Of a DNA stretch of 64,000 bases, positions 12,921 through 64,000 are shown in pieces (position 1 is the first letter of the stretch; each line of letters starts with the position of its first letter). Origin of the DNA: Stieleria neptunia (GTDB taxonomy: Bacteria > Planctomycetota > Planctomycetia > Pirellulales > Pirellulaceae); contig NZ_CP037423.1 of the NCBI RefSeq assembly GCF_007754155.1, positions 4,650,001 to 4,714,000 on the forward strand, read 5' to 3'. A model generated the notes under the pieces. The model did no database searches. It saw nothing but the letters and a program-made list of their open reading frames with translations, and had not been told where the DNA came from. A program made the translations under genes and the position numbers.

Positions 12921-12952
12921 CGGCGGGGCGCTCGCCGCTGTGAAGCATTTGT

Positions 12953-14262: not shown

Positions 14263-14400
14263 GTCAGGTTCGATGATTGGTTGGTGCGGCATTCCGTTTC
14301 CAAAACCAAGACTTCAACGGGAATGTTTCGTGACGGCAAGACCGTCGGGCATTGGGACTTATCAAAGTCAAGGCCGGCTCGCCAAGACCACTTCCATGGT

Positions 14401-21658: not shown

Positions 21659-24600
21659 GTGCCGAAGACCGCAACGACGACCAAGAGGATACGCTGGATG
21701 ACGTCGACCAAAGGGGGGCGTCCATCGACGAGACCAAGGGCGACGCCATCGACGAAACCTTGCAGTGGGCCGAGCCGTCGGATCAGACGACGACCGATGT
21801 TCCATCATCAAACACCGAAGCCACGCGTGTTTTCGCCGGCGGCTCTGCGGCCAATCAGACCGCCAGCGATCTGAATGAAGAGACCGTTGACGAAGTCCCG
21901 CCGTCGGTGATGCACAGCCGCGACATTTCCCAGACGATCAATCCGCGAGAACTGAGCAAGGAGGATGCGGCATTCTGGGGATCCGCCGCGATCGGGGCCA
22001 GCAAGCAGAACAAGGCCGAACCGTCCCAGTTGCGTCCCGCGGTGGAACGGTCCATCACCGAATCGAAACTGCAGATTCGCGAGCGTGACCTTGCCATCCC
22101 GACCCGCGACCCCGATTCGCCGTCGGACTATCGTTTGATTCGATTGCTCGGTCGCGGTGGCATGGGGAATGTCTACGTGGCGCGACAGGCCTCGCTGGAT
22201 CGGATGATTGCGGTCAAGGTGATCAAGCCGCTGCCCAAGGCCAAACGTCAATCGCTCCGCCAATCCGGTCGCTTGAAGGACGTCGAACACGAGCGGCGTC
22301 AGCAATTCTTGTCCGAGGCGGTCGTCACGGGTGACCTGGATCACCCCAACATCGTTCCCATTCACGACATCGCCGTGGCGGCCGACAACACGTTGTTCTA
22401 CGCCATGAAACGTGTCGTCGGTCAGCCTTGGCTGAAGACGATCGAAGAACGATCACGCGACGAAAATCTGGAAATCTTGTTGAAGGTCTGTGACGCGATC
22501 GCGTTCGCGCACACGCGCGGCGTGATCCACCGCGACATCAAACCCGAAAACATCATGCTCGGGGATTTTGGCGAAGTGTTGGTGATGGACTGGGGGCTGG
22601 CGATCGCCAAACCCGAATTCGAGAAACGCGACTCGATCACCTTCACCGCCGGCTTGGGCGGGACACCGGCTTTCATGGCGCCGGAGATGGCGCTCGGTCC
22701 GGTCGAGGCGATCGGCCCGCACAGCGATATTTATCTGCTCGGTGCGACGTTGTTTTACATCATCACCGGCGTTCCACCGCATCGGGCCGATAACGTCAGT
22801 CAGTGCATCCGCAAAGTCGCGGCGAACGAGATCCAAGACGCATCGACGCAGCATGGCGGCGAGTTGTTGGAGATCGCGTTGCGGGCGATGGCGACCGACC
22901 CCAAGCAGCGCTACGAGAGCGTGCAAGCGTTCCAGCAAGCGATCCGGTCGTATCGATCCCACTCTGAAAGCATCGCGATCTCGACGGCGGCCCAGCAGGA
23001 ATATCAACGGGCCCAAGAAACGTTGCGTTACGAGTCCTTTTCACGCGCCGGTCACGGTTTTGAACAGGCCCTTGCGCTTTGGGATGGCAATCAAGCCGCC
23101 ATGGAAGGCTTGGATCGATGTCGGATCGATCACGCCGCAGCCGCCTACGAAAACGGCGACTACGACCTGGGATTGTCATTGCTCAATCCCAACGAGTCGA
23201 AACACCTGCCGCTGATCGAAAAATTGAACGCGGGGTTGCACCAACGCGAACAACGTTTGGTTCGTTTGCGACTGATGCGCCGGCTTGTCACCGCCAGTTT
23301 GCTGTTCATTCTGGTCGGCGGAAGCATCGCGTTGTACGTGATCAATCAGAAACGCAATGAAGCGAACGAGCAGCGTGAACTTGCCGAAACCCAACAGCAG
23401 GTAGCCGAGCAACAATCTCGGCTCGCGACGGAGCAGCGGGATCGGGCGGAGGAATCCGAGCAGCTGGCGGCCAATCGGCTGGTCGAAGTGGAGCGGGAGA
23501 AGGCCAAGGTCGAGCTTCAGAAGAAAATCGCGGAAGACAACGAACGGGATGCAAAAGACGCGCGGATTTTGGCCGAGGAGAATGAACAGAAAGCCAAGGA
23601 TCAAGAACTGATCGCCAAGCAAAATGCCGACGATGCGCTTCGACAGAAGCTGAAGGCCGAGCGGAGCGAAAAAGCTGCGTTGGTGGCACTGGAAAGGGCG
23701 CGGTATGAATCGTACCTGTCTCAAATCGGTTTGGCCAAAGCCCGCGTGGACGGCAATGAATTTGACGATGCACGATTGATCTTGACGTCGATTCGGGCTG
23801 CCCGACGCGACCAGTCACCGGCCTGGGAATGGCGTTACTTGTGGCACTTGGCCAACCAATCGCGATCGTCGTTCCGATTCGATTCCGGAGTCAGCGATCT
23901 TGCCATGGCAGCGGACGGTCGGTCCGGAGTCGTGGTTTGCAACGATGGCACGGTGCATCGCGCCAAGATCGGCGATGCATCGGGACCGATTTGGACGCGT
24001 GATGATCTGTTCGCGACGTGCGCGGACATCGCCATCGATGGCCAATGGTGTGCGATCGGGACGCAACGGGGGACTGTCTTGATTGTCGACCCGATGACGG
24101 GGCGGACCCTGCACGTGCTGGACGGACATTCCGCGACCGTCAACGATCTGGAATTTCTGGCCGACGGACGGTTGTTGTCCGCGTCCTCCGATCGCACGGT
24201 CGCACTGTGGGATCCCGGCAACGAGCGACGAGTCTCGCGCGGCTGGCATATCGCGCCGGTTGTTTCGCTGGCATCGCGTCAATCCGACAGCGGTGATCCG
24301 CCGACCATCATTGCTGCGGTCAGCGATGGGAAAGCGGGACGCGTCGTCGCGTGGCAGATCCAGTCCGACCGGTTTGCACGAATCGGAGAGTTTTCCGGTC
24401 ATTCCTTCCCGGCCATTGCGTTGGCGCTGTCGAGTGATGGGCAACTGGCCGCATCCGGAGACACACGCGGCAACGTGTTTTTGTGGCGTCCCCGGCAACT
24501 GCGGCCCACCGATTTTGACGCCGCGCTCCAACGGGCGATCGATTCCATCAGCGACAATCCCGAGTCACCCGAACCGTCGGTCGCTGGACAGCCAGCCACG

Positions 24601-49156: not shown

Positions 49157-50125
49157 ATGAATCGTAACAATCCAAGTGCCCACCGATCGCTGGACATCGC
49201 GTTCTGTGCGGGAACCCTGCTGGCGTTTTGGCTGATGTCGCCGACACCGACTCTGGCTCAGTCGGGGTCCGTCCCCGAAGGCATCGTTGCCCGAGGCACC
49301 GCAACGGTGACGGTCGAGCCATCGGCGCTGCGGCTGACGATGTCCGTCAAAGCTCAGGGAAAAGACCCCAAATCGGCGGTTCGCTCGCTGGCAGCACACA
49401 AGCAGCGTGTGCGAAAAGAATTGGGCGAAATGAACGCGAACAGCGAGTCGGTTCAATTCACATCGACTCAACTTTCAACAGGCGGCAGCAACAATTCGGA
49501 ACAACAGCAATACATGCGAATGATGCAACGTCAAATGGGGCAAGTTGTACCTGATTTGGGCGAAGTCCCAACCGTCTATACGGCGACGGCATCACTACGA
49601 GTCGATTGGCCATTGCCGACCACGGATCCGGAAGCCCTGTCCTTGTTGCCGCAAGGATTGCGAGACCAAATTTCGAAGCGCGATTTCCAGGGTGACAACA
49701 ACGCACCGGATTTGGACGAAGAATCACTTGAGAAGCTGGAGGCGAGTCAAGCGATGGGCGACGAAACGTATATGTATATGGAGGAGGGTGACTCCGGCGA
49801 AGCCCGCATTCAATTTGTAGGCAAGTTGAGTCCTGATCAGCGTCGGGACGGATTGAAGTCCGCGATCGCAAAGGCGAAGACATCCGCCCAAGTGACGGCC
49901 GAAGCACTGGAGGTCAAGTTGGGCAAACTCAAGACGTTGTGGCCCAACGAAAGCACAAGTTCCACCACCTATTCAAGGTCCGCCTACATGGGATCGGAAT
50001 ACTACGCGTCGTATGGCGATACAGATGCGGACGCCACGGAGGATTCGCAATCCGATGTGACTGCCGCAACCCTCGATGGGTTACGATTCAGCGTGAGTAT
50101 CTTCGCGGTCTACGATTTCGAGTAA
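49157..50125 (+). CDS. SIMPL domain (DUF541) protein
   Basis: A 322-residue protein whose ATG at 49157 follows GGGAGAAG. It has a signal peptide (IAFCAGTLLAFWLMSPTPTL, cleaved near TLAQSG) and the SIMPL pattern: VPEGIVARGTATVTVEPSAL, RLTMSVKAQGKDPKSAVRSL and, near the end, AIAKAKTSAQVTAEALEVKLG, followed by a final beta strand (LRFSVSIFAVYDFE). A Gln/Asn/Met-rich insertion lies at about residues 110-130. SIMPL/BP26-type proteins form periplasmic oligomers of unclear role. It is the last gene of the operon, 36 bases after the HEAT protein; no obvious terminator was seen in 50126-50318. Confidence 0.88.
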   Translation: MNRNNPSAHRSLDIAFCAGTLLAFWLMSPTPTLAQSGSVPEGIVARGTATVTVEPSALRLTMSVKAQGKDPKSAVRSLAAHKQRVRKELGEMNANSESVQFTSTQLSTGGSNNSEQQQYMRMMQRQMGQVVPDLGEVPTVYTATASLRVDWPLPTTDPEALSLLPQGLRDQISKRDFQGDNNAPDLDEESLEKLEASQAMGDETYMYMEEGDSGEARIQFVGKLSPDQRRDGLKSAIAKAKTSAQVTAEALEVKLGKLKTLWPNESTSSTTYSRSAYMGSEYYASYGDTDADATEDSQSDVTAATLDGLRFSVSIFAVYDFE

Positions 50126-50318
50126 ACGTGCGATTCAGTCGTCGCCGACGCGATCACGGAGTGTGAAACGGAGAGGCACACCCCTGATCGCACCGCAAAT
50201 CGACATCCACGTTCGCGCTAGCTGCAGGGGATTGCAGACAAATTGCCTGCAGTTCCATTAACTGCAGATCGCCCCATCGCCCAACCGGCAATCGCCACAA
50301 ATCCCCACGAAACTTGGC

Positions 50319-51332
50319 GTGTTTGCTACGAATCCCAAGCATTACTACCATCGCACCCAACAGTACTCCATCACCGCGCTGACCGATTCGAGCGGGACGA
50401 TCAAAGAACGCTACGCTTATGACGCGTACGGCAATTTGTCGATCTTCGATGGCAGCGGAAGTAGTCGTACTGCGACGACGGAAGGCAATCGGTACACATA
50501 TACGGGCCGCGAGCGGGACGGCAAGCTCGGACTGTATCACTACCGTGCTCGAATATATTGTGCTGAAACGGGTCGGTTCTTATGTCGTGATCCAATTGGG
50601 TATTTTGACCATAGCTCTCTTTATGAATTTTCAGACACGCTATCAACTACGGACCCGGGCGGTCGTGTGCGTGTATCGTTGACGGCCAATGTCACTGGAA
50701 TCGGTAGTTGCGGAACGTTTTCCGGCACGAATAAGATAGGAGTCAATGTCGATGAAGCTGAAAGTGGGCGTGGACGCCAAATATTCATTGTTCAACACAT
50801 TCAGTTTTCGATAATTCAACGCAAGTGCGAAGGCACCGACAAAAAGTGCTGCAAGCCAGGTGTCGCCGAGGTCCACGCTTGTGAGTGGTATGAAATCTTT
50901 GGGGTGATTTCCGCGGCTAATGAGGGAGCTCCTCGCGTTCAAAACGCACCAGGGATAGCGGGGCCCAATCCGTTCGGCGACTCGTGGGAGTCTGGGTTAT
51001 TGATGCCAGGCGGATGTGGCGACAAGGGCGTTATACTTTTCCGTGGAGAAACACGTGCAGTCCGGGATCCCGACGGTAGCTTAGAGAGAGCGTGGCGCAA
51101 TCCGTCGCCCAGTGGATTAATTTCTATCTGTCCAGAGCTTCCGAGTGGAGAAATGCGGGTAAACAATGGATATGCAGATGCCCCTGCAGGTTGGGAAAGC
51201 AGCCTTGGATCTGTTAGCTCATCGGCTGGGCTGCATTGGGATTGTTGCGGAGACGAGAACTCAGTGATGATGACTCTCGGCCAAGGTGATGGCAGCTTTG
51301 ACACAATAAAGATTGATCCAGAAAGCTTGTAA
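50319..51332 (+). CDS. Orphan RHS-repeat tip with variable Cys-rich C-terminus
   Basis: A 337-residue frame from GTG 50319. Residues 1-115 match the RHS-repeat-associated core: YYHRTQQYSITALTDSSGTI, KERYAYDAYGNLSIFDGSG, RYTYTGRERDGKLGLYHYRA and GRFLCRDPIGYFDHSSLYEF. The upstream repeats of a full RHS protein are missing; the frame closes at a TAA near 50265, so this is a displaced tip or remnant. After DPGG the C-terminal 220 residues are unrelated to any toxin I recognise; they are Cys-rich (KKCCKPG, HACEWYE, WDCCGDE). The base composition falls to visibly lower GC than its neighbours, suggesting transfer. It may encode a polymorphic toxin end, but no catalytic motif is evident. Confidence 0.75.
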   Translation: MFATNPKHYYHRTQQYSITALTDSSGTIKERYAYDAYGNLSIFDGSGSSRTATTEGNRYTYTGRERDGKLGLYHYRARIYCAETGRFLCRDPIGYFDHSSLYEFSDTLSTTDPGGRVRVSLTANVTGIGSCGTFSGTNKIGVNVDEAESGRGRQIFIVQHIQFSIIQRKCEGTDKKCCKPGVAEVHACEWYEIFGVISAANEGAPRVQNAPGIAGPNPFGDSWESGLLMPGGCGDKGVILFRGETRAVRDPDGSLERAWRNPSPSGLISICPELPSGEMRVNNGYADAPAGWESSLGSVSSSAGLHWDCCGDENSVMMTLGQGDGSFDTIKIDPESL

Positions 51333-51404
51333 GGAGGTGCCTGTGTTACGCTCCGCTTTGATTCTGTTAATGTTCATTCTCCTGCGTCCAGAAGCAGTCG
51401 GGGC

Positions 51405-53178
51405 GGGTGCATTCCCATTTAGTTGACGCAAAAATCACGTTAATCGTCGGCCGAAAGGAGTTGTTGGTCAGTGGCTTCAACTTTGCAGCTCATTGGACGA
51501 GGCTCCCAGTGCCAACTGTCGCTTGCCTGGGTGCGACGGAATTCGGCCAGCTCGCCGATTGATTCATCCCAACGATTAGGAATCAGATGAGCGCGAACTT
51601 GAAGCATCTGCTCCGCGTTTTCGCTTTTCCAAAACATTGCATTGCTCTTTAGACGCAAATTGATCACGCGGCGAATGCTGCTTTCGATCGCCCCGCTACC
51701 ACAAGGGATTCCGCTGCGACGATAGGCAGGGTAACTCAACCGACCCGCTTCACCATGTCGGCAAAGGTAATGGATTTCTGTTTCCAGTTCTGTGGCCGAT
51801 TTTCCGACGCGTTCTAGGCCGGCGAGCTCATCAACCACTCGCCGCCATTGACCGTTTCGCAGCAGCGTTCGGTACTGACGATAAAGCCCCTGGCGGACGT
51901 CTGCGTCGAGCCCAAGCGAAGCAAGCGCTTTGGAAACGTGATGCACCGCATGGCAGCAGTCCAAGACCTGATGCGTGACGACGCTCGTGAGTCCCGCATA
52001 TTGAATGATGCGATCAATACGATCCCAAATCCAGGGGGCGCCATCGGCGACGAACGTCACGCTATGTGCCTCCGCGGCTCCGAGCCGATGCAGATGCATC
52101 GCAACCAATTCGGCGATCGCGTCGGGCCCAGTCAGGGTGCCATCGATCGTCGCTTCATGCTCCTTCACCATCCGCCCCTGCTCGTCGTGAACAAAAATCG
52201 TCATCAGTTTAGGCTCCCGCCAGTCCGCTTCAAACGAGCGTGCAGGTTTCTTTGCCGAGCGTCCGGGCGAGTCAGCTTGCCCCTGAGCGACATCATCGCT
52301 TGACGCATTGGAAGTCGATGCAGGTAGCATTTTGCCGCGTATTTTCATTCTTCCGCCATCAATTTGCACCGACACTCGTTTCCCGGCCAATTCACCGGTG
52401 CTCGCCAACTTGCCCTGCCGAAACAGTTTGAGCCGATGCCGTCGTAGGCGCAATAAGCCGTCGCCAGATTGATAGGCGATCCGTTTGACCGCCTTGATAT
52501 CAAGTGTGATACCATCGCGAACCAGTTCTCGGTGAGCCACTTCGATCGAAGGACACAATGCCACTTGGCGTGCCACGCGACTCTCCAGCGCGGGCGAGAC
52601 GCCTTTGCCGAACCCGAATTGAGCAAGCGAAACATGCAAGCCGACGCGGGGCGAATCGTCTCGACCAAGCAACTTTTTCTTAGGGGCACAGTAGAGCGCT
52701 GTGGCCCAGAACAGCATGCCGCCGAGCAATCGAACGGCGACCCTAGTCTCGCGCCCTTTCTGAAGCGGTCTTGAGAAGTTGACCCGACTCGATTGGCATG
52801 CTTTTTCAAAACCTTTTTCGATCATGGTCGCGGAGATCAGCCCGGCGACGACCATGTCCGCACCGCGGGCAAAGGCATCATGGATGGTTCTTTCCAGCGT
52901 TGCGAGTTGCTCGGGATGATCTGAGATCCGTTGTTTCCAGAGCGTAACTTTGGGAACCAACTGAGCGTAAAAGAGCGCGAGCATTTCTTCAGCCGACTCA
53001 ATCCGCTCACCATTCTCTTGCCCCATGTCTAGTCCTTGCATTGTCGTCGGCATCCTTGCTAGGCGAGTGGAAAATCATCCTTGAATCGCCCAAGATACCG
53101 TCAACACCGGATCCAGAAACAGCAGCCAAGCCCCCGACGGGTTGCTAGCAAAAACGTCAACTAAATGGGAATGCACCC
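51405..53178. mobile_element. ISKra4-family insertion sequence, complete
   Basis: A 1774-bp element with perfect 24-bp terminal inverted repeats (51405-51428 and 53155-53178; the tip is GGGTGCATTCCC) flanked by an 8-bp direct repeat GTCGGGGC at 51397-51404 and 53179-53186. It carries one transposase gene on the minus strand. The intact ends, exact duplication and unbroken transposase frame indicate a recent insertion. Family assignment rests on the transposase. Confidence 0.93.
51440..53053 (-). CDS. ISKra4-family transposase
   Basis: A 537-residue transposase filling the element. The DDE residues can be placed: the first Asp in KRVSVQIDGGRMKIRGK, the second in SVTFVADGAPWIWDRI, and the Glu in GIPCGSGAIESSIRRVINLR, the usual C-terminal block of ISKra4 enzymes. 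Around residue 150-170 is a conserved region (VSLAQFGFGKGVSPALESRV). The N-terminus is helical and likely DNA-binding. The start is 53053 or the in-frame ATG at 53026 (MGQENGERIES). The frame is intact and no frameshift is visible, so the element may be active. Catalysis is cut-and-paste or copy-paste, not determinable here. Confidence 0.92.
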   Translation of the reverse strand: MPTTMQGLDMGQENGERIESAEEMLALFYAQLVPKVTLWKQRISDHPEQLATLERTIHDAFARGADMVVAGLISATMIEKGFEKACQSSRVNFSRPLQKGRETRVAVRLLGGMLFWATALYCAPKKKLLGRDDSPRVGLHVSLAQFGFGKGVSPALESRVARQVALCPSIEVAHRELVRDGITLDIKAVKRIAYQSGDGLLRLRRHRLKLFRQGKLASTGELAGKRVSVQIDGGRMKIRGKMLPASTSNASSDDVAQGQADSPGRSAKKPARSFEADWREPKLMTIFVHDEQGRMVKEHEATIDGTLTGPDAIAELVAMHLHRLGAAEAHSVTFVADGAPWIWDRIDRIIQYAGLTSVVTHQVLDCCHAVHHVSKALASLGLDADVRQGLYRQYRTLLRNGQWRRVVDELAGLERVGKSATELETEIHYLCRHGEAGRLSYPAYRRSGIPCGSGAIESSIRRVINLRLKSNAMFWKSENAEQMLQVRAHLIPNRWDESIGELAEFRRTQASDSWHWEPRPMSCKVEATDQQLLSADD

Positions 53179-53604
53179 GTCGGGGCTGGAGACTTCGATG
53201 CTCTGATGCGTCAAGCTGACATCGTTGTTATTGCCAAATGCAATGGCCGGATCGAGACAAACAAGAGAAGTTTGCTGGCTGTACCTAGCCACTTAGAAGA
53301 GCATATTACGGTAGACGCCTATAGATTCAGCCCCTCGCTGGTTCTCAAAGGAGTTGTTCCAGAAGGTCCTCTGATCCTCGAAAACTTTGCGATGAAAGAT
53401 CTGGGAGCAACCAAGGGCAGACGTCATTCAGCCATGGTCGAATTTCGTGTGGGCAAGCAGAAATTCCGCGGGGTCGATTGGGTCGCCATCCTAGATTTTG
53501 AGTACCTGCTATTCTTAAGGAAGTTGCCATCTGGGAGATTTGCGTTAATGGGTAACTTCGAGGAGATGAAGGAATCTGCTAGAATCGTGTCCCCAGTTTT
53601 TTAG

Positions 53605-54230
53605 ATATTGCCAGACGGTTCCAAACCCGTCCTTTCAAAATGCGTCGGACGAGCGTTTAGGTTGGAGAATTGCTAGCTGAGATTGGTGGATCAGCCGCAA
53701 ATGTAAGCCGAAGGGCATGATTTAGCAAAAGGTCAGAACAATCAAAACGGACGGGGGTGGATTCCCGCAAATCAGCGGCGGACGATTGACGTGAACACAC
53801 AACCGCGTCTCCTTCCGCCGCAATGGGAGGCCGCTTAGTCTTGCCGCAAGACCGACCGCTTATCCGGACGCCCAAAGAACGCCGAAGGCACGGCGGGTAG
53901 GATGCCCGTCGACTGAAACCCGTCGGGGACAGGATGTCAGTCGGACAACGATGGCAGGAAGCGGGAAGGCAGAGAGGGAGACAAGGAGAGGGGGAGACAA
54001 GGAGTGGTAGAGTGATGATGGTTGTGGAGTGAGGTAGCGTGCCATCGTTCGCCGACCGGAGTGAGGGAGGGATCGACCGAGCGGAGCCGACGGCCCGCGG
54101 AGGTGGTGACAGCGACCGAAGGATGAGGGTAGCGCCGAGCGATAGCGAGCAGCACCGACGCCGAGGGCGGAGCCCGATCAGAACAGTGCGAGGCAGGAGG
54201 CCGAGCTCCTTATCAAGAAGGGCGAAAGTG
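53605..54230. other. Gap without gene; purine-rich repeat
   Basis: No coding gene is supported here. At 53976-54004 a 13-base purine-rich unit GGGAGACAAGGAG occurs twice with a 16-base period. The stretch 54040-54215 is GC- and purine-rich and rich in GAGCG-type words, but I cannot assign it. It ends at the first copy of the 85-bp repeat. Confidence 0.5.
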
Positions 54231-54315
54231 ACCGCGTCCGAGCCTAAGCGAGGTAAGCCGGGAACGAGCCACTCGGTAAACCATCATCCGACAGCTTGTC
54301 TGTTCGGCCAAAGCC
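54231..54315 (+). repeat. 85-bp direct repeat, left copy
   Basis: It starts ACCGCGTCCGAGC and ends TGTTCGGCCAAAGCC and matches 62096-62180 with three mismatches in 85 bases. Weaker similarity continues about 45 bases past its right end (CCGACAGGC... CCGCCAAG). It lies 160 bases left of the IS21-type element. It could be a recombination site, a cassette end or a remnant of an older duplication. Confidence 0.9.
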
Positions 54316-54552
54316 CTCTGCGGATCACCGACAGGCTCCCCCGGCACTGATCCGCCAAGCCACTCGGCCGCTCTCGAACCGAGTCTCATCATCACGGCGA
54401 GACAATGGAGACCTGATGCGGTGTAAACTGATGCATCGTCTCCTATGGAACATTCAGACATTCAGTTCACGCGTGTGTCTAGCGGCGATTGGTTTTCCCG
54501 GCCGTGTTGCCTCAGCCGAGAAGGATACCCAAATGGAAGGACTAGAAAGAAT

Positions 54553-54597
54553 GCTGGCATAGGGCTGCTGAGCGTAGCGAAGCCGCCCTATGCCAGC
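54553..54597. terminator. 13-bp perfect hairpin downstream of the rve transposase
   Basis: GCTGGCATAGGGC at 54553-54565 pairs with GCCCTATGCCAGC at 54585-54597 around a 19-base loop. It lies past the 3' end of the minus-strand transposase gene (54628), so it may be its terminator or a structure at the element end. There is no T tract after it. Confidence 0.55.
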
Positions 54598-54627
54598 GGT
54601 TACATTTTTCATAGGCGAGCAAGACAC

Positions 54628-56142
54628 TTAGGTCGCCGTGGTGCCCGTCACTAATTTCCTTGCCATGATATTCCGCCACTGACTCACGCGACGTTGAAGC
54701 GTTCGTAGTTGACCGCCGTTGTATTTGTCGGGCGATCGTTCGATGAGCCTTTCGAGTAACGACGACGCAGTTGCGTCTGGGGATTTTTCAAGCCATCCAA
54801 GAATCGTCGTCCAGTCTCCTTCAAAGGGGTCTGGACGCGTTCGATAATCTCGCGTTCGCATCGGCTTCGGCTGATGAGTTGGTCGGGCCTCGCCTTTCTT
54901 CCATAGCTCCGGTAACTGTGAAAGAAATTCTTCGAGATCAATCTGCTGCTCCTGGGAGAGCGAATCCTCCGTCGACAGCGAATCCAGCGCAGCTTGCGAT
55001 TGTCGGATTGCGTGTAGTAGTTCTAGCGGGTCCTGTTCAAGACGGTTGCGTCGCAAATACTCTTTCGATTCGGATGATACTCGCGAGTCACTAAGTAGCC
55101 GTTCACATGGCGTTTGAGGTGAGTGAAACTTCTTGCTTACCCTGGCGCCGTCACGAGTCTTGCTTAAGAGCTTGAAGGATGGCTGAAACATGTTCACGTA
55201 CCAACGAACACTATCGAAAAGATGTGCGATGGTTTGGCATGCGATCGGTCCCGAGAATCGCTGATAGCCGAGGTGTTTGCGAACGATAGAACCGTTCTTC
55301 TGCTCGATCCATGCCTGATCGTTTTTTCGATAGGGCCGTGATCGAGTAAATGTGATACTTTGGGAATCGCAGAATTTGATGACTGATTCGTTGATGAACG
55401 AACTGTCATTGTCAGTGTTTATTCCCAGGACTGGAAACGGAAATCTGTTCCGCAGCAATTCCAAAGATTCGACGACGAGAGACTGCTCGCGAATCAGAAT
55501 CGGGATGCATTCCGTCCATCCAGACGCAACGTCTGTAGCAACCAAACTGTGTATGAATGGGCCGGATAGATTCCCTCCGCAGTGAGCAACAAAATCTACT
55601 TCGAGACTCCCAGGGGCGACATCATCCCATTCGGAAAAGGTCTTGACGGCAACTGCAGCGCGGACCTTTTTCTTTGGGCGAACGCGTTTCTTTCCAGTCG
55701 CTTCCTCACGTATAGGACGAAGCAGTCGGTCTATGGTTGAAGCACTTGCCGACAACACCCGCGTCTTGAGAGAATCATCAAGATTCATGTGACCGTGCGA
55801 CTCCATCGACTTCAGCAACTCGGGAAGAATCGCTTTGAGGCGTTTGCCGCATAGGCGATCGGAAGATTCCCAGAGCGTTACAAGCACCTCCTTGACCGCG
55901 CAGTCGTATATTTTGCGGCCCACGACTTCACAACGCTCTGGGGTGGTGTTTTGGCGTTCAGCGAGAATTCGCAGCGCGTACTTACGTTGGTGTCCGGTAA
56001 TCGCAACAAATTCATCGAGTATCCGCGACTTGTCTCGTTTCCGTGCGCCGTAGTATCGCGAACGAATCGAGTCAATCAGTGCAGCTTTTGCTTGCATTTC
56101 CATGGCGCCACCTACGATTTGGGTATCTTTCTGTTGAGGCAA
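54628..56142 (-). CDS. Transposase with rve integrase core (DDE)
   Basis: A 504-residue transposase of the retroviral-integrase superfamily. Helical DNA-binding region at about 15-150 (KSRILDEFVAITGHQRKYAL). The DDE triad can be placed: Asp in SLEVDFVAHCGGNLSG, Asp in GINTDNDSSFINES, Glu in NDQAWIEQKNGSIVRKHLG. The C-terminal 75 residues (RTRDYRTRPDPFEGDWTTIL ... LRTLQRRVSQWR) resemble the N-terminal module of the neighbouring IstA (KPRDYRTRIDPF ... RRTFERRVRLWR). The frame is intact. The start may be the ATG at 56142 or at 56103 (MEMQAKAAL), since the region before it overlaps an end repeat. The exact IS family is not certain. Confidence 0.85.
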   Translation of the reverse strand: MPQQKDTQIVGGAMEMQAKAALIDSIRSRYYGARKRDKSRILDEFVAITGHQRKYALRILAERQNTTPERCEVVGRKIYDCAVKEVLVTLWESSDRLCGKRLKAILPELLKSMESHGHMNLDDSLKTRVLSASASTIDRLLRPIREEATGKKRVRPKKKVRAAVAVKTFSEWDDVAPGSLEVDFVAHCGGNLSGPFIHSLVATDVASGWTECIPILIREQSLVVESLELLRNRFPFPVLGINTDNDSSFINESVIKFCDSQSITFTRSRPYRKNDQAWIEQKNGSIVRKHLGYQRFSGPIACQTIAHLFDSVRWYVNMFQPSFKLLSKTRDGARVSKKFHSPQTPCERLLSDSRVSSESKEYLRRNRLEQDPLELLHAIRQSQAALDSLSTEDSLSQEQQIDLEEFLSQLPELWKKGEARPTHQPKPMRTRDYRTRPDPFEGDWTTILGWLEKSPDATASSLLERLIERSPDKYNGGQLRTLQRRVSQWRNIMARKLVTGTTAT

Positions 56143-57012
56143 CCACCATCGTTCGGTATCCGAATTGTTGAGGCAATGCGCTCCTTGTTTTCACGGAGAT
56201 TGCGATGGTCACGGACGGAAAGGTTAAAGAACTGCGGCGTTTGCTAGCATCTGGCAAGTCACTGGCCGCATCGTCAAGGATGACTGAGATGGATGAGAAA
56301 ACGGCAAGACATTATCGAAACGACAATCGGCTCCCCTCTCAGCGGAAGAAGCCGCGAGATTACCGGACTCGCATCGATCCATTCGCCGATGTCTGGAACG
56401 AGGTGCAGATCAGGCTTGAGGCCGAACCGCGACTGCAGGCCAAGACCCTTTTCCAGTGGCTGCAAGACCGCTATCCAGGCGTCTACCCAGACTCCACTCG
56501 ACGAACCTTCGAACGTCGAGTCCGATTGTGGCGCAGTACAGAAGGTCCAGACAAAGCAGTGATCTTCCCGCAGGTCCATCATCCGGCTCGGGTTGCTGCG
56601 AGTGACTTCACCGTCATGAACACACTGAACGTGACCATCGCGGGCGTTTCGTTTGAACACATGCTCTTTCATTGTGTCCTGACGTATTCCAACGTCGAGT
56701 CGGTCTCTCTGTGTTTCTCCGAATCTTTCGAAGCGCTCAGCGAGGGGATTCAAAAGTAAGCGCCCAGGAGCACCATGGGTTAGGTGGGCCAACGGGGCGA
56801 CGCCGTGGCCATGTTTCAGGGAAAGAGCTATCGCCCGATTCTCGGATCCACTGGCCGTAGATGATCCGCGATCCGCCGGGACAAGCGTCTTGATCTCATA
56901 GGGCCCAACGCGAGCTTAGCAGGCGCGTGACTCCCTCGTGACGCGCGAGGTGTGTTCTACGTCAGTTTTCTTTTATCGAAAGACAGTCCTGAATGCTGCC
57001 TTGCAGTGCCAG

Positions 57013-58851
57013 CTACTGATCCAGGCGGGCGAGGCGGCGGCGAAGCCGATCTCGCTCTCGACGGATGTTGTCAGCTTCACGCTCCTTTTGCCGGTGGGCC
57101 CGGATCGACTCCGGATGCGCTGTCCCCCATGCGTCAGGACGCAGCGCGGCATAGTCGCGACTGCCTGCGAGAAGCTGGTCGAGTACGTCTTCCAAGTACG
57201 CCGCCACATCCAGGTCGTTTCGTATCGCGCTGCTGACGACCGTCATCAATGTCGCCGTACGATAACCCGATGCAAGACTGCCAAGAAAAAGCCAGTTCTT
57301 GCGACCCAGTGCTACTTGCTTCATCAGCTGCTCGCATGAGTTGTTGTCGATCGGGATTTCCCCGTCTTCAAGGTGAGCCGTCAGTCCTTGCCATTGATTC
57401 AAGATGTAACTTCGCGCATCGCTGATCTTGTCACTACTCAGCACGTCCATCATCTTCATCTGGAGGTACTCGCGCATCTGGCCCCAAAGGGGAGCCGATT
57501 GCTTTTGGCGAAGTGTCAAGCGTTCTGCTGGCGACAACTCTCGAGCTTCGTCTTCGACATCATAAATCAATCGAAACAATCCAAGTAAATGCTTTGCATG
57601 CTCCGCGTGATTGTCTAGCGCAGCTTCCACCTTCCGACGCGCATGGGCCGCGCAAGCGGCATGAACGATCAATCCGTTTGATCGTATGTAAATCCCCGTG
57701 TTCGCTCCGTAGCAGTCTCCCAATAGAGTTCCCGTATACTCGCTATCGACTAAAAATTGGTCCGGCCCATCACGGTGACGACTGACCGTAAAGTCAAACA
57801 CGTTGATTGGAATATGAACGCCTCGGTAGGCCCACATCTTTGCCGTGATGCTTTTGAGCCCTTTCGACTTGGCTGCTGCAAAAACTTCCGCAGCACGCCG
57901 ACCCTTCGGATCGTCCTCGCGTGCTTCGGGAATGTCTTGCGGCAACAGTAAGCGGATCGACGTGTCGTCACTTCCGATGCAGCTGTCGGTGCGAACCAAG
58001 TCAGCAAGCCACTGCACGAACGGCCGGAGCACGCGTTCGGCAGCTTCTTGAAGGTTTAGTAGCGTACTGCGTGAAAGGTAAAGGCCGCACTCGGCGAACA
58101 TGTCCTCTTGACGATAGATCGGCAGATGGTAGCCAAGTCGATTGGCAATGACCGAGGCAGCGAATGAGGTGTCGTAGCGATCGCCTTGAATCAGCGCCGC
58201 GGGGCGTGGGGCCTGCAAAATACCGGCGCGGGGATCCTCCGGGTGAACGTACTTGGGGAAGATCTTTCGAATGATATAGGCCGCACCCCGGGTGAAGTGT
58301 GCCGATTCGACCACGTCTTCTCCGATCCGCACCAAGCCTTCTTTTTCTTCGTCGCTTAAGTCGACAATCACTTCCTTGCGCGGCAGGCTGTCGGGAAAAC
58401 GCTCTTCACGCTTGCGTCGCTTGGGCGGCTTGTTGCGTTTGCCGGCTCGATCATTTTCTTCGATCGCCTGCTTGATGCCTTCACGAGCGTCGTCGATTTC
58501 TGCTTGACTGGCGAATTCGAACTTCAGCTGGTCGTCGTCTTCAAAGCGTTCGCTCTGGCGGCCAAAGATGCGACGGATCAAAGCGTCGAGTTCGTCTTGC
58601 TTTTTGGAGAGTTGCTTTCGTAAGTCCTCGTTCTTCGATTCAAGGTCCTCTTTGGCCGCAGCGAGTGACTTGGCGTCTTGGACGAGAGACTCGTTGGTGG
58701 TAGCAAGCGATTGGTTGTTTACAGCGAGTGAATCGACTTTGTTGGTGAGTGACGCATTGGTGGCAGCAAGCGATTCATTGACGGACTCAAGCGTGCTGTT
58801 TTTCGCACGCAGGGCTTCGATTTCGCGTTGAAGTTGCTTGAGCTTGTCCAT
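57013..58851 (-). CDS. tnpC: IS66 transposase TnpC
   Basis: A 612-residue catalytic transposase. The N-terminus (about 1-90) is an unusually regular coiled coil of Ser/Leu/Asn units (SLAATNASLTNKVDSLAVNN), longer than in many IS66 TnpC. A short Lys/Arg-rich segment (KRNKPPKRRKREERFPDS) and a zinc-ribbon-like region lead to the IS66 core, with IGSDDTSIRLL (first Asp), GLIVHAACAAHARRKVEAAL and the C-terminal block HLEDGEIPIDNNSCEQLMK with Glu, then NWLFLGSLASGYRTATLM. All DDE positions appear present. The gene lies 132 bases downstream of tnpB with an intrinsic terminator in between. Confidence 0.95.
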   Translation of the reverse strand: MDKLKQLQREIEALRAKNSTLESVNESLAATNASLTNKVDSLAVNNQSLATTNESLVQDAKSLAAAKEDLESKNEDLRKQLSKKQDELDALIRRIFGRQSERFEDDDQLKFEFASQAEIDDAREGIKQAIEENDRAGKRNKPPKRRKREERFPDSLPRKEVIVDLSDEEKEGLVRIGEDVVESAHFTRGAAYIIRKIFPKYVHPEDPRAGILQAPRPAALIQGDRYDTSFAASVIANRLGYHLPIYRQEDMFAECGLYLSRSTLLNLQEAAERVLRPFVQWLADLVRTDSCIGSDDTSIRLLLPQDIPEAREDDPKGRRAAEVFAAAKSKGLKSITAKMWAYRGVHIPINVFDFTVSRHRDGPDQFLVDSEYTGTLLGDCYGANTGIYIRSNGLIVHAACAAHARRKVEAALDNHAEHAKHLLGLFRLIYDVEDEARELSPAERLTLRQKQSAPLWGQMREYLQMKMMDVLSSDKISDARSYILNQWQGLTAHLEDGEIPIDNNSCEQLMKQVALGRKNWLFLGSLASGYRTATLMTVVSSAIRNDLDVAAYLEDVLDQLLAGSRDYAALRPDAWGTAHPESIRAHRQKEREADNIRRERDRLRRRLARLDQ

Positions 58852-58909
58852 GTACAGAAGACTAAAAGCTTCTCGAAATCGCGCAATAGCAAATCACCGT
58901 CTGGGCAAG

Positions 58910-58945
58910 AAAAAAAGCAAGTTTTCTTCGCCGAAGAAAACTTGC
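58910..58945 (-). terminator. Intrinsic terminator between tnpB and tnpC
   Basis: On the minus strand a perfect 14-bp stem (58932-58945 with 58917-58930, arm GCAAGTTTTCTTCG) is followed directly by seven T (58910-58916). This is a strong Rho-independent terminator. It stands after tnpB and before tnpC, so transcription from the tnpA end would usually stop short of tnpC. Confidence 0.85.
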
Positions 58946-58983
58946 TCCCAAGTGTGGTCCGTCGTCACTGCTTCCGCGGCAGC

Positions 58984-59331
58984 TTACGCTGCCTTGAGCC
59001 GTTTACGTCTCTTGGCATTTTCGATTGAGATTCCACCAAGCAGCATCGCCAAGTCGGCTGCGTCGAGCTTGACGCTCGCCTCGCCATCTTGCCTGATTCT
59101 TTCAAAGGTGCCTTGCTCCAGACTTTTGTACCACACCGCCATTCCATCGCGGTCCCAATAGAGTGCTTTGAGTTTGTCCTGGCGTCGATTGATAAACAGG
59201 AACAAGCTTCCGTCATTTGGCGTTTTGCCTAGCTCGTTTCGCACGATGCCAGCCAGGCCCGAGAAACTCTTTCGCATGTCGGTCGGCTTGGCGTAGAGAA
59301 AAATGCCGCCAGTGGTTGGTAGCGCGATCAT
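58984..59331 (-). CDS. tnpB: IS66 accessory protein TnpB
   Basis: A 115-residue IS66 Orf2 protein starting at ATG 59331, overlapping the tnpA stop (ATGA). The family pattern is complete: IFLYAKPTDMRKSFSGLAGI, DGSLFLFINRRQDKLKALYW, WDRDGMAVWYKSLEQGTFE, and AADLAMLLGGISIENAKRRK at the end. It is needed with TnpA for IS66 transposition but has no known catalytic role. Its length is typical (110-120). No separate ribosome site is needed because it overlaps tnpA. Confidence 0.95.
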   Translation of the reverse strand: MIALPTTGGIFLYAKPTDMRKSFSGLAGIVRNELGKTPNDGSLFLFINRRQDKLKALYWDRDGMAVWYKSLEQGTFERIRQDGEASVKLDAADLAMLLGGISIENAKRRKRLKAA

Positions 59332-59657
59332 TGCTGCAACTCGCTTGGTTGTGGTGCCAACCGGTCGACGATGATCATCAGGCTGTTGGCATCGCAGGAA
59401 GCAAGCTCGATCTGCGTGCCACAGGGAAAGCGGACAGTGGTGCCGCCGATTTGGGGACGCGGCTGCTCGATCTGCACGGCAAGAAACGCGTCGCTCTGAT
59501 CGGCGTCGCCCTGCAGCCTTTGTCGCCATCGATAAAACGATGCGGTGGAGACTCCGTGCAAATCGCAAAATTCGGAGACCGCAAGATCGGACTGTTCGTG
59601 AAGTTGGATCAGCCGCGACCAACGTTGGCGAACGGCGGGGTCTGGCAAGCGAACCAT
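59328..59657 (-). CDS. tnpA: IS66 accessory protein TnpA
   Basis: A 109-residue IS66 Orf1 protein from ATG 59657 (MVRLPDPAVRQRWSRLIQ), preceded on the minus strand by AGGAGG, a strong ribosome site. The middle has a helix-turn-helix region (SDLAVSEFCDLHGVSTASFY, then RWRQRLQG), probably DNA-binding. The C-terminal half (TTVRFPCGTQIELASCDANS) matches the family. The upstream extension to 59690 (MGFHSRNQEVS) is not favoured. Confidence 0.92.
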   Translation of the reverse strand: MVRLPDPAVRQRWSRLIQLHEQSDLAVSEFCDLHGVSTASFYRWRQRLQGDADQSDAFLAVQIEQPRPQIGGTTVRFPCGTQIELASCDANSLMIIVDRLAPQPSELQQ

Positions 59658-60682
59658 GGAAACCTCCTGGTTACGTGAGTGAAAACCCACCAGCCTACGC
59701 CACGCGCCAAGAATGGTTTCCTCGGGCGCTTACATTCAAAATGCGTTTTGGGAATTCGGCGGAGTGCCCGAGCGTCACCGCACTGATAGCCTTAGCGCTG
59801 CGATCAACAATCACTCTTCAAAGAAAGAACTCACTGCTCGCTATGGAGCGTTGATGGATCACTATGGCACCAAGTCAGAGCGAATCAACGTTCGCTGTGC
59901 GAACGAAAACGGCGACGTTGAGTCATCCAACGGTCATCTCAAGAATCGAGTCGACCAAGCATTGCTACTTCGCGGTAGTCGCGACTTCGCCAGTCGTGAA
60001 GACTACATGCATTTCGTTCGATCCCTGATCGTTCGCGCTAATGATGCGCGCTTAAATCGATTTGAAATTGAACGCTCGCATTTGCGACCACTTCCCGATA
60101 GTAAGCTTGATACCGATGACAACCAACAAGGCATCATCGTCGGCAGTAGCAGCACGATTAATGTCAAGAAAAACATCTATTCGGTTCCTAGCCGATTGAT
60201 CGGTCAAAAAGTCGATGTGCGGATCGGTGCCGAGTGGATCGATGTGACGCATCACGGCATCCACGTGCAACGGATGCCACGACTTACTGGCGTCGGCGGA
60301 TCGGCCATCAACTACCGGCACGTGATCGATTCATTGGTTCGCAAACCGGGAGCATTCGAAAACTACAAATACCGTCAGGACATGTTCCCGACGAGTCACT
60401 TCCGAATCGCCTATGACATGCTATGCGACGCTCACAGCGAGAAGGTGGCGGTGAGGAAGTATCTTGAGATCCTGCAATTAGCGGCTAGAGAAAGCCAAGA
60501 TGCGGTGCAGAATGCACTGCGTCATCAAATCCAATCGGGACAATCCATCGATGTCGATCAGGTTCGGCTGATGGTGAGTGAAGCGATCGAGATCAAGCCG
60601 GTGACCGACATCGATGTCAAAGCACCGAACTTGAAAGACTATGACGAATTATTTGACACGTTTGACAAGGAGAGTCCAAACG

Positions 60683-61549
60683 ATGAATCAATCAACCACA
60701 CGAAAGCCCCAATCGAAAAAGACCGAATCGTCGATACGGCAGCCTCCCAAGACCCCGCCCACGAGGACGAGCAACGAACGGACCGAGGAGCGGCTGAAGG
60801 AGCAGTTTCGCAGCTTGCGTCTGCCGATGTTTCGCGACCAGTTTCAAGCGACGGCCGACCGAGCAGCCGCGGAGGATCTCAGCCATGTTCAATACTTATC
60901 GGAACTGGCGGAACTGGAATGCCAGGCCCGCAACGAGAGTCGGATCAAGCGTCTAATGACCAACTCACGTCTTCCGCTGGGCAAGACATGGGAGACGTTC
61001 AACTTCGATCGCTTGCCATTGTCAGTGACACGACAACTGGAGAGTCTTCGGGAGGGATCGTTCTTGGATCGTCGGGAGAACGTACTGATTTTCGGTCAGC
61101 CCGGTGCGGGGAAGAGTCACGCGCTTTGTGCCTTGGCGAATCAACTCGTCCAGCAAGGCCGGAGCATGCTTCTGACAACGTGCAGCTTGCTGGTGCAACA
61201 GTTGCTGATCGCAAAGCGGGATCTTCGCCTGCAGAAGTACATCAAGCAACTGTCTCGTTTCGAGGGCCTGATGATCGACGACCTGGGTTACGTGCAGCAG
61301 AATCGAGAAGAGATGGAGGTGCTGTTCACGCTGCTGGCGGAACGTTACGAGAGAGGGAGTGTTCTGTTGACGAGCAACTTGGCGTTCAGCAAGTGGGACC
61401 AGATCTTCAAAGATGCGATGACGACGGCGGCGGCGATCGATCGCTTGGTTCACCACAGCGTGATCATCGAGTTGAACGTGCCAAGCTATCGCGTGGAAAC
61501 AGCCAAGAAAACGAAGTCAGCTGGACGGTCAGCAAAGGCCTCTCAATAA
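60683..61549 (+). CDS. istB: IS21 helper ATPase IstB
   Basis: A 288-residue AAA+ ATPase that loads and activates IstA on target DNA. ATG 60683 (MNQSTTRKPQSKK) follows AGGAGAG, and fits better than the upstream in-frame start at 60641. Walker A GQPGAGKSH (in NVLIFGQPGAGKSHALCALA), Walker B LMIDDLGYVQQNREE and sensor 1 VLLTSNLAFSKWDQIF are all present. The N-terminal IstB region (RLPMFRDQFQATADRAAAED) is typical. The length (about 250-290) fits. Its partner istA is broken, so the element cannot move by itself. It lies inside the unterminated istA frame, offset by one base. Confidence 0.95.
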   Translation: MNQSTTRKPQSKKTESSIRQPPKTPPTRTSNERTEERLKEQFRSLRLPMFRDQFQATADRAAAEDLSHVQYLSELAELECQARNESRIKRLMTNSRLPLGKTWETFNFDRLPLSVTRQLESLREGSFLDRRENVLIFGQPGAGKSHALCALANQLVQQGRSMLLTTCSLLVQQLLIAKRDLRLQKYIKQLSRFEGLMIDDLGYVQQNREEMEVLFTLLAERYERGSVLLTSNLAFSKWDQIFKDAMTTAAAIDRLVHHSVIIELNVPSYRVETAKKTKSAGRSAKASQ

Positions 61550-61632
61550 AAATCGGATTCGTAATCGGGAATACTAGTTGTCGCTAAAGCGGAGAACCAA
61601 TTGTCGCCGAACACGCGTGACCAAATTCAGCA

Positions 61633-62070
61633 ATGAAACCGGCGAGATACTTCTCTGATTCAATAACCATCGGGGCGAACGAGTACTTGGTTGAAGTTCG
61701 CGAGGGCGTCGGTGAAAAGAAATATCTTTGCATTCAGAGGAACCCGTCAATGAACTCTAAAGTGGAGTCGATCGTCGTTTACGAGTCGTCTCTTCCACAA
61801 TTCCTCGATACGATCGTTCGGGCAGCTGGCGCGATCTACCATGACGTGCGTGCGCTCAGCGACGCAGTCGAACAATCGAGTTACGAAGATCGAGTAAATC
61901 AGATACGCGAGCGTTACCCGAATGCCTATACAGCTTGGACCAAGGAGGAAGATCTTCACCTCAGCGAAAAACATCGTGATGGTAAGACGATCGACGAACT
62001 GGCGGTGATCTTTCAGCGTCAGCCAAACGCTATTCGATCGCGACTGAAGAAACTCGAGTCCAATGAGTAA
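61633..62070 (+). CDS. Pur-alpha-like (DUF3276) protein with C-terminal HTH-like domain
   Basis: A 145-residue protein from ATG 61633, just after the IS21 right end. Residues 1-75 resemble the DUF3276/PUR family ssDNA- or RNA-binding fold (YFSDSITIGANEYLVEVREG, KKYLCIQRN). Residues about 100-145 (AYTAWTKEEDLHLSEKHRDG, KTIDELAVIFQRQPNAIRSR) match a short SANT/HTH-like module seen at the C-terminus of many DNA-handling enzymes. No transmembrane or signal segment. It is the only non-transposon gene between the two 85-bp repeats and ends 25 bases before the right copy, so it looks like the cargo of that unit. Function in cells unknown. Confidence 0.72.
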   Translation: MKPARYFSDSITIGANEYLVEVREGVGEKKYLCIQRNPSMNSKVESIVVYESSLPQFLDTIVRAAGAIYHDVRALSDAVEQSSYEDRVNQIRERYPNAYTAWTKEEDLHLSEKHRDGKTIDELAVIFQRQPNAIRSRLKKLESNE

Positions 62071-62095
62071 ATTCGCCTATTGGATCGCGCAAGAG

Positions 62096-62180
62096 ACCGC
62101 GTCCGAGCCCAAGCGAGGTAAGCCGGGAACGAGACACTCGGTAAACCATCATCCGACAGCTTATCTGTTCGGCCAAAGCC
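62096..62180 (+). repeat. 85-bp direct repeat, right copy
   Basis: Matches 54231-54315 with three substitutions. It begins 25 bases after the stop of the Pur-alpha-like gene and, like the left copy, is followed by weaker shared sequence for about 45 bases. With the IS21 element removed, the two copies would be about 720 bases apart (start to start). Confidence 0.9.
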
Positions 62181-62670
62181 GTTTGCCTTTCCGACAGGCC
62201 CACCTCGGCGCGGAACCGCCAAGGCTGACTAACGACAGCCAGATCAAGCCGGGCGCCTCTTTCTTCCCCAATGTTTTTTGGCTTTCGCCGAGCCGGACTG
62301 ACGCCGTCACCCGTGACCGTTCGGTGGCAGTCCGAGAGAAGGCGAGAGGCGAAAAACGCGCACGTGCGATCGTTAACACCAAGTGCGTTGACTTTAACGA
62401 TTGATACCGAAGCGGTTTTCTACTTTTGCGGCGGTTGGCGAATTGCTCTGTTGACAACCAGGCGGAGCTGTCGGGTCATCGAGGTGGTCCACGCTCTCGG
62501 GCTCATTGAACTTGATCGCCATCGCCACCGATCAAGGCCGCCGCCATCAGTGACAACCGAGAGACACGCAGCGCAGCCGGCCGGATCGCCAAGCCCACGC
62601 GACCCCGCCGGCATGGATCTTCTCCACGGCGTCTGCGCAATCGCAACGCACCAACACAAGGTCACCCCCG
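62181..62670. other. Gap without gene
   Basis: No supported gene lies here. Short frames are Arg-rich and show no domain. At about 62380-62405 GTTAACACCAAGTGCGTTGAC is followed by TTTAACGATTGA; core-like GTT and AAC words occur, but no ordered attC site was confirmed. Confidence 0.4.
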
Positions 62671-63066
62671 ATGGCTTCGACGTTACCAGCCCTGGTCCAA
62701 AGCTACATCGCATACCTGCAACGATCGGGCCACAAACGACGCATCGTCAACATCACCAGGCAGCAACTCGACTACTTCGTCACCTGGTGTCAAACGCAAT
62801 CGATCACAACCAACGACCAAATCAGCGACACAACCGCCGCTGACTATGTTGGCCACCTGCAAAACGAAGTTGACTTAATCAATGGTGCAGCGATTGGGAT
62901 CCGCATCGTTCGTGAACGCGTCACAAAGCTTCGTCGCTTGTTTGAATGGCTTGCGCGAGACACCAATTTCTCCAGTGACATCGCAGCGACGGTTCCCACA
63001 ATCGATAAACGCGGGAAGGCGAATCTGCCAAGCCATTGCTGCTACGACCAAAAGCTTCCGGCCTAG
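62671..63066 (+). pseudogene. Tyrosine recombinase, N-terminal domain only
   Basis: A 131-residue frame whose sequence (LVQSYIAYLQRSGHKRRIVN, RQQLDYFVTWCQTQSITTND, RERVTKLRRLFEWLARDTNF) matches the SAM-like core-binding domain of XerC/D-type recombinases. It stops at TAG 63064 soon after KANLPS, the point where the neighbour at 63576 enters its catalytic domain (QRLPSSHLTIDEI). The downstream 500 bases do not resume the catalytic fold in any frame I read. Either the 3' part was lost in rearrangement, or a stand-alone core-binding protein is made. A remnant is more likely. Confidence 0.65.
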
Positions 63067-63141
63067 GACGCGAAGCTTCCGGGGCCTGCGGCAAAGCTGA
63101 CGGCGTGCTTCCGTGGACCTTCTGGTGGCATTCGATTGACG

Positions 63142-63444
63142 CAAGTCGTTTCCAGTCAAGCAGCTAGCCACGATTCACCCCAACCGAACCCGAAAACGTC
63201 GCAAGCCCCCCCTCATGCAAACACTCTGTATACAACAATTACGACCAAAACTGCGAGCATGCGATAGCTGACTGCGAGCATCAGATCGGCAAGCCCGAGC
63301 ATGGGATGTGCATTGGGTGAGCATGTCATGAGCATCGTTTGTGATGCTCAGTAATTCACACAAGTCGTTGCCAGCCAACGACATTCAAAACGAAAGCGAA
63401 AACTTCGCCTTCAAACCTCGCAAGGCCCCCTCATTGAAAGTCTT
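63142..63444 (+). repeat. Diverged pair of 84-bp direct repeats
   Basis: Copies at 63142-63225 and 63361-63444 share the ends (CAAGTCGTT-CCAG and GCAAG-CCCCCTCAT) in the same relative place, offset by 219 bases, while the middles have diverged. They bracket the GAGCAT cluster and precede the recombinase at 63576. The 63067-63575 gap holds no gene. Confidence 0.6.
63255..63349 (+). promoter_or_regulatory. GAGCAT iteron cluster, helically phased
   Basis: GAGCAT occurs at 63255, 63275, 63297, 63319 and 63330 on the plus strand and inverted at 63344. The spacings 20, 22, 22 and 11 are close to two turns and one turn of the helix, so the sites face the same side. This pattern suits cooperative protein binding, such as an operator or accessory recombination site for the adjacent recombinase gene. 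The binding protein is unknown. Confidence 0.5.
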
Positions 63445-63575
63445 GCCATAGCTGCATCGCCGTGATCGGTGATGCCGTCTTCTTCGGCCGAGTGACGTTC
63501 ACCCGGCCGCCTTCACCCTGATCGAGCACGCCCGGCTACCGGTACGCGCTGATCACAACCCCAGGATGCAAATCC

Positions 63576-64000
63576 ATGTCAAACCTTCCTACTCCCACCG
63601 TCCTGCTAACTCGTTACTTCAACAACCTTAAGATGAACAACTGGTCGGCAACGACCATCTCGCGCCGCGACTACGTCTTGAACAAGTTCATCACGTGGTC
63701 TTCCGAACGCGGCATCGAGTCCGTCACCGAGATCACGCCCGAGTCACTCGCAGCCTATCGGCGTTGGCTCTATCACTACCGCAACGAACGCACCGGCAAG
63801 TCGCTCAAGTTCTGTACTCAAGCTTCCTACCTCTCAACGGTTGGTCACTGGCTCGCATGGCTGACCGAACAGGGTTGGATCAACAGCGATCCATCAACCG
63901 GCATCGAACTGCCCAAGGAAGAACAGCGTCTCCCATCATCGCACCTGACGATCGACGAAATCGAAACGCTGTTGAGCTCCGTCGATCTCACAACCGCGAC
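63576..64000 (+). CDS. Tyrosine recombinase/integrase, XerC/D type (runs off window)
   Basis: An open frame from ATG 63576 (MSNLPTPTVLLTRYFNNLKM) continues past the window end, giving 141 residues here. CAGGA lies nine bases upstream. The visible part is the core-binding domain (TISRRDYVLNKFITWSSERG, LAAYRRWLYHYRNERTGKSL, LSTVGHWLAWLTEQGWINSD) and the start of the catalytic domain (LPKEEQRLPSSHLTIDEIET). The catalytic Arg, His and Tyr lie outside the window. XerC/D, integron-type and trio-type recombinases all share this N-terminus, so the type cannot be decided. It is probably the enzyme acting on sites in this accessory region. Confidence 0.85.
   Translation, partial: MSNLPTPTVLLTRYFNNLKMNNWSATTISRRDYVLNKFITWSSERGIESVTEITPESLAAYRRWLYHYRNERTGKSLKFCTQASYLSTVGHWLAWLTEQGWINSDPSTGIELPKEEQRLPSSHLTIDEIETLLSSVDLTTA

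Follow-up and report, generated by a model that had tools for sequence, protein, structure and literature searches.

The 64,000-nucleotide stretch of Stieleria neptunia DNA analysed here (the window; C1:4650001-4714000, in the single-contig genome G000 of 10.98 Mb) carries one of five arrays in which direct repeats, tyrosine recombinase genes and the variable tips of rhs genes alternate. We consider it likely that these are arrays of mobile Rhs tip cassettes, copied as circles via two kinds of site, site a in the rhs core and site b at the left edge of the repeat, with the adjoining recombinase, INT, as the inferred enzyme. The comparison of the arrays indicates that the putative circles carry cassettes between a stored set and the first, expressed position. 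Three circularly permuted duplications imply such a presumed circular intermediate, and their narrow, permuted crossovers point to circles and, probably, site-specific recombination.

Permuted duplications and their crossover sites

A standard unit between copies of the repeat, R, comprises a primase-like/ATPase gene (PRIM) or its remnant, then INT and an Rhs core whose tip varies, in many cases with a small gene after it. We call X the segment from R through INT, and Y the segment from the core through the tip up to the next R. Array D has the order Y0 X0 Y1 X1 Y2 X2 Y3. There, Y0 equals Y2 over 1,907 bp exactly (9641-11547 = 22690-24596), a block that takes in the small gene and the complete tip of the full-length rhs gene. 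X0 equals X1 over 4,218 bp exactly (11523-15740 = 18485-22702). Therefore, X1-Y2 of the array matches Y0-X0 of the head in permuted order.

The second permuted case links two loci: B 8782-10839 is identical to C 14206-16263 (2,058 bp), and B 10832-14259 to C 10773-14200 (3,428 bp). The third is in another species (genome G012), where the head block 5726-10315, itself broken by two insertion sequences, matches 20537-22516, and 10302-14474 matches 16381-20553 with one mismatch. These three duplications from two species come from a survey of all exact blocks of at least 300 bp within the G000 and G012 arrays. Besides these, it yielded insertion sequences, two more tip pairs, of 539 and 778 bp, and repeats of that G012 X segment between the two arrays of this genome.

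Unequal crossing-over or a single conversion tract would keep the order of the blocks and so does not explain the permuted one, whereas a circle opened elsewhere alters it. The tip and the small gene move inside the duplicated blocks. The source copy is still present in all three cases, so that the process looks like copy-and-insert.

The crossovers are narrowly confined. At site b, the windows are 25 bp in D, 8 bp in B/C and 14 bp in G012, and ATCAAGA is the 7 bp common to all three. At site a, they are 13 bp in D and 17 bp in G012, both with CCAACAGTA.

The arrays could instead be ordinary orphan rhs-tip arrays, in which gene conversion and homologous recombination of the RecA type reshuffle the repeated segments, with the recombinase genes as passengers. 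The units do have long similar segments in common, two separate conversion tracts with the same end points could mimic a permuted duplication, and a Salmonella orphan rhs tip is deployed by homologous recombination (PMC3967940). Moreover, the edges of the two other identical tip pairs lie inside the core and before R, and hence homologous recombination acts here too. However, the two blocks of each permuted duplication meet at R within the few base pairs given above, and three events fall on the same 7 bp, while longer identical runs near R (up to 71, 68 and 74 bp, in homologous stretches) were not used. Likewise, homology at site a extends over about 260 bp, and two crossovers there are confined to its first 13-17 bp. 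We thus regard homologous recombination as an unlikely sole account.

In the circle mechanism that we favour, a circle would be released at one kind of site (R or a) and inserted at the other kind. From array to head, an R x R circle would integrate into site a, either of the rhs gene or of an array head with a decayed rhs body, which would fuse the new tip in frame and push the former tip behind INT. In the opposite direction, a circle excised by a x a at the head would enter the array at an R and so store a copy of the current tip. INT, judged by its invariable position beside a, would act there and probably at b too. The primase-like gene may assist the copying.

The surroundings of site a are shared between rhs heads and INT flanks within a genome. 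In G000, both carry GCACC 5' of CAACAG, except head F (ACACC), and in G012 both carry GCGGC there. In genome G003, whose INT is 43% identical, five of five INT flanks carry TCTTGCTCCAGAGATCC, which recurs with one mismatch in a neighbouring rhs core at the last conserved stretch 5' of the tip.

All the arrays of G000 and G012 also have ATCAAGTT or a near-match about 30 bp 5' of site a on the INT side. It resembles the ATCAAGA of site b and may be a binding or crossover motif.

Repeats, recombinases and tips of the arrays

The initial annotation started from two 85-bp repeats, which are indeed present on the same strand with 3 mismatches and can be aligned over 100 nt at 93%. A 26-bp piece of R matches twice in the window, compared with 0 matches in 100 shuffles. 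It had been left possible that the sequence occurs only at these two places or as a plain dispersed repeat without link to recombinases. Instead, there are 24 matches in the S. neptunia genome, 21 of them in the five recombinase-holding arrays. R also occurs in 6 of 59 related genomes besides G000, every one of the same genus. The copies are as follows.

Array A, 4.70 Mb (this window): four R copies
Array B, 5.88 Mb: five R copies
Array C, 7.51 Mb: five R copies
Array D, 3.21 Mb: four R copies
Array E, 6.75 Mb: three R copies
Lone R copies: 10.1, 5.65 and 1.18 Mb
54222-54321, + strand: R copy 1 of the window, including the 85-bp repeat at 54231-54315
62087-62186, + strand: R copy 2 of the window, including the 85-bp repeat at 62096-62180, not preceded by ATCAAGA

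A known RNA was considered for R and rejected, as window positions 50000-64000 have no Rfam match up to E 1.

INT is a 318-aa tyrosine recombinase (PF00589, 145 bits), and its alignment has invariant R, K, H, R, H and Y columns, which we take to be the catalytic positions of the family. All 12 intact copies in G000 lie 218-264 bp 5' of an Rhs core, and a thirteenth, degenerate copy lies 1,305 bp from one. Among the 14 Rhs cores other than heads, 12 stand behind INT. The same placement holds in G012 (four of four, across two arrays) and, as judged by the short common sequence, in G003 (five of five).

PRIM has 688-764 codons in the copies listed. Its N-terminus resembles the DnaG core (PF08275, 24.1 bits, below the cut-off of 26), it reaches E 4e-6 with TIGR01391, far below that cut-off, and an ATPase-like motif was seen by eye. 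In five units, a 131-aa open reading frame (ORF) takes its place.

The Rhs core family TIGR03696 scored above its cut-off in three of three own tips scanned, and the tips diverge past the core. Array D has an intact 2,221-codon rhs gene at its head, followed by three shorter tip ORFs, the layout of orphan Rhs arrays with truncated tip genes behind a full-length gene. The tip of this intact gene is 100% identical to a stored copy. Arrays B and C and locus F have merely pieces of rhs body 5' of the head core. The first 600 residues of the D rhs protein have no orthologue in 13 other genomes at E 1e-60.

In D and E, stored tips have a conserved start codon 189 bp 5' of the core (e.g. L033 18497), with the frame continuing into the tip. 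Given this codon, they could be translated with a short leader. Outside the arrays, an Rhs core at G000:C1:6361010-6361240 lies in a 12,318-codon open frame, and G012 has a similar frame of 12,322 codons.

The window had been proposed to hold a mobile cassette system of the integron type. The general part of that proposal holds: the units are repeat-bounded, mobile and next to tyrosine recombinases, and R has many copies. As in integron arrays, where the first cassette is expressed and the rest are stored with a tyrosine recombinase at work, only the first unit is fused to the expressed gene. The integron part does not hold. As a single strand, R forms no more stable a fold than shuffled DNA does (z -0.26 to 0.66 in four folds), so no attC-like fold was found. 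The best solved match of INT is XerD (197 bits), against 92 bits over 65 residues for IntI4, a comparison in which the IntI-specific insertion was not looked for. Moreover, 12 units own a recombinase gene each, and the standard units hold several genes with the Rhs tip as cargo, not one gene per repeat-bounded cassette as had been supposed. An integron-type array is hence very improbable.

Several observations, besides the two tip pairs with edges inside the core and before R, weigh against the reading of the arrays as circle-copied tip cassettes. The footprints fit array-to-head and head-to-array movement alike, and the sequences do not decide between them. Two mismatches leave the position of site a in the B/C duplication uncertain over up to 33 bp. 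PRIM of this genus is without the CHC2 and Toprim parts seen in relatives and may have no priming activity. In G000, an intact rhs head is found only in D, those of A, B, C, E and F being decayed. Two of the 14 non-head tips are preceded by an Rpn-type nuclease gene in the place of INT, and the head of array E stands likewise. Finally, we infer that the tips are toxins and the small following genes their immunity genes, roles kept as putative because none of 10 scanned tips matches Pfam and a small ORF, by a positional rule, follows 13 of 19 tip ORFs.

The Rpn-type genes (PF12784, found on the copy in locus F) encode PD-(D/E)XK nucleases. They are in or beside arrays A, B, E and F (e.g. L033 5865-6746) and stand three times directly before an Rhs core instead of INT.

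The 720-bp unit and its surroundings in the window

The two repeats of the window bound a unit whose size without its insertion-sequence nest had been put at about 720 bp. This estimate was correct, since arrays B and C carry the natural nest-free unit with R starts 720 bp apart. The other features of array A in the window are listed below.

50319-51332, + strand: Rhs core and variable tip of the array A head (core 50346-50603; TIGR03696 49.1 bits, cut-off 32.5)
50353-50365, + strand: site a, GCACCCAACAGTA, the left edge of the exchangeable Rhs tip (exact string and crossover windows)
51404-53178, - strand: insertion sequence separating the head tip from the small ORF that follows, with a transposase ORF of 537 aa
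53206-53604, + strand: small ORF of 132 aa without a Pfam family, a candidate immunity gene by position alone
54212-54218, + strand: ATCAAGA, site b, the 7 bp common to the three crossovers (crossover windows at R)
54475-61613, no strand assigned: insertion-sequence nest within the 720-bp unit, with an inner IS66-like element at 56756-59733
61633-62070, + strand: orphan 145-aa gene of the 720-bp unit, the same gene being 97.9% identical in arrays B and C
62671-63066, + strand: 131-aa ORF where the primase-like gene would stand, without a Pfam match, interpreted as the N-terminal piece of a recombinase
63576-64000, + strand: INT (Phage_int_SAM_1), cut by the window end and running to genome position 4714529

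The 720-bp unit lies between the R of the head tip and the first X in arrays A, B and C. In all three, ATCAAGA is missing before its right R, while it precedes nearly all other R copies of the arrays. The small gene stops 25 bases 5' of the right 85-bp copy, as had been noted, and lies, like the unit as a whole, inside the B/C duplication, in its 3,428-bp block. Its former label 'Pur-alpha-like' finds no support, as no Pfam family matches at E 0.01 (an unrelated sub-threshold match has 0.042). Among 5.8 billion proteins, the product has no homologue except its own record. Thus, the unit is a minor, atypical cassette with an orphan gene and may be a derivative one.

The nest described by the initial annotation is real: 54475-56755 and 59734-61613 match one unbroken stretch elsewhere in the genome (98.5% and 99.9%). 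The inner IS66-like element is flanked by an 8-bp target duplication, ATTCAAAA, and sits inside the older insertion, which is present without it at 5.65 Mb. The insertion sequence at 51404-53178 has near-identical copies in array B, in array E and at the 10.1-Mb position.

Recombinase genes do follow the unit on its 3' side, namely the 131-aa ORF, read as a fragment, and the gene at 63576. The full integrase expected to the right of the window is there too, this gene being complete in the genome with 318 aa, and the next Rhs core begins 218 bp after it. At the other end, just about 13 bp of rhs body remain 5' of the array A head core. In an empty-site search covering 13 further genomes of the genus, two had relatives of the gene upstream of array A, with no array flank in the 1.5 kb behind them.

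Primase-recombinase pairs in other lineages and comparison with known systems

A scan with the INT alignment kept 80 loci, and the best 30 were examined. A PRIM relative stands beside INT at 16 of the 30 (two with the N-terminal part only) and is missing at 14. Half of these 16 loci end no more than 0.7 kb past the last INT, as repeats would cause. The PRIM of locus L144 has CHC2, DnaG-core and Toprim matches, and five other rows of the alignment align there.

The 14 genomes reached via INT loci hold 31 distinct PRIM loci, in 12 genomes. A same-strand Rhs core lies within 6 kb at 11 of the 31, against about 0.3 expected by an estimate from core numbers and genome sizes, and none lies on the opposite strand. 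The 11 belong to a Maricaulis, a Duganella, a Pseudomarimonas, Binatota, Planctomycetota, Acidobacteriota, Wallbacteria and Elusimicrobia. A search of 391 other Planctomycetota, scoring two candidates per genome, gave a PRIM match at E 1e-60 in 25. In the 21 of these 25 genomes scanned with TIGR03696, a core lies within 6 kb at no fewer than 5 of the 27 PRIM loci, one of the five being below the cut-off. As an Rhs core is near just part of the PRIM loci, the pair is not tied to Rhs everywhere.

These distributions bear on whether the pair is a selfish element that favours insertion in or after rhs genes, tip exchange being a by-product without host benefit. The pair brings its own primase-like gene, 20 of the 31 loci have no Rhs core within 6 kb, and up to 22 of the 27 Planctomycetota loci have none nearby, though many of these contigs end just past INT. 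On the other hand, every intact INT of G000 is directly 5' of an Rhs core, and the tip and small gene travel within the duplicated blocks. We hold a purely selfish element to be quite improbable.

More broadly, we tentatively put forward, as a possibility short of an expectation, that primase-recombinase modules are cross-phylum self-copying elements. Many of them would target the 3' part of rhs, swap the tip in frame and keep the old tip with its immunity gene behind the recombinase, thereby building an ordered, redeployable store of past toxins.

Two further kinds of neighbourhood were seen. In L159 (Shewanella) and L158 (Colwellia), a short PRIM-like gene and INT come after two istA/istB-like genes, followed in L159 by two Rhs tips. 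In other Planctomycetota, putative PIN-domain-toxin-like genes, judged by their motif, come after primase-recombinase-recombinase trios (L260, L261, L270, L271, L273 and L278).

No account of primase-recombinase Rhs-tip cassettes was found in the literature, with subscription literature largely outside the search, so we make no claim of unpublished status. For the origin and redeployment of orphan tips of Rhs and contact-dependent growth inhibition (CDI) systems, two models are offered in PMC4927057. Here, the sequence allows one to name the crossover sites, a likely enzyme and the kind of intermediate, which makes the question testable. The mechanism would assign a role to the integrases interspersed with orphan toxin modules, and arrays of this kind could be sought in other phyla by their primase-recombinase pair.

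Orphan CDI/Rhs arrays, as outlined in PMC4927057 and PMC3967940, hold stored toxin tips and immunity genes behind a full-length gene, with integrase and transposase genes between them, and displacement of the old tip has been proposed for CDI (PMC4927057). The present arrays are alike in their stored tips behind a full-length gene and the interspersed integrase and transposase genes. Unlike in those arrays as outlined there, most stored tips here are paired with an adjoining INT of their own, which may or may not come with a primase-like gene. Moreover, the crossovers can be placed to within a few bases, and the footprint is permuted and circle-like.

The rAID orphan immunity arrays of Bacteroidales, according to PMC12247911, likewise have a tyrosine recombinase adjoining an array of orphan interbacterial-conflict genes, with conserved intergenic motifs. 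As described there, they store immunity genes alone and have one recombinase, whereas the present arrays store tips and have rhs as their partner site.

In the pneumococcal tvr locus (SpnIV), by the account in PMC6265443, circles arise through a tyrosine recombinase and direct repeats of two kinds, and their reinsertion alters the end of the expressed gene. In our arrays too, a tyrosine recombinase stands beside two kinds of direct repeat, R and site a, and excision and reinsertion of circles would change the end of the expressed gene. The cargo of tvr, in that account, is parts of the hsdS specificity gene, with one recombinase gene per locus, whereas here it is Rhs tips, with a recombinase in each unit and the copies retained. 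Among the systems compared, the tvr locus is the nearest worked-out parallel to these arrays.

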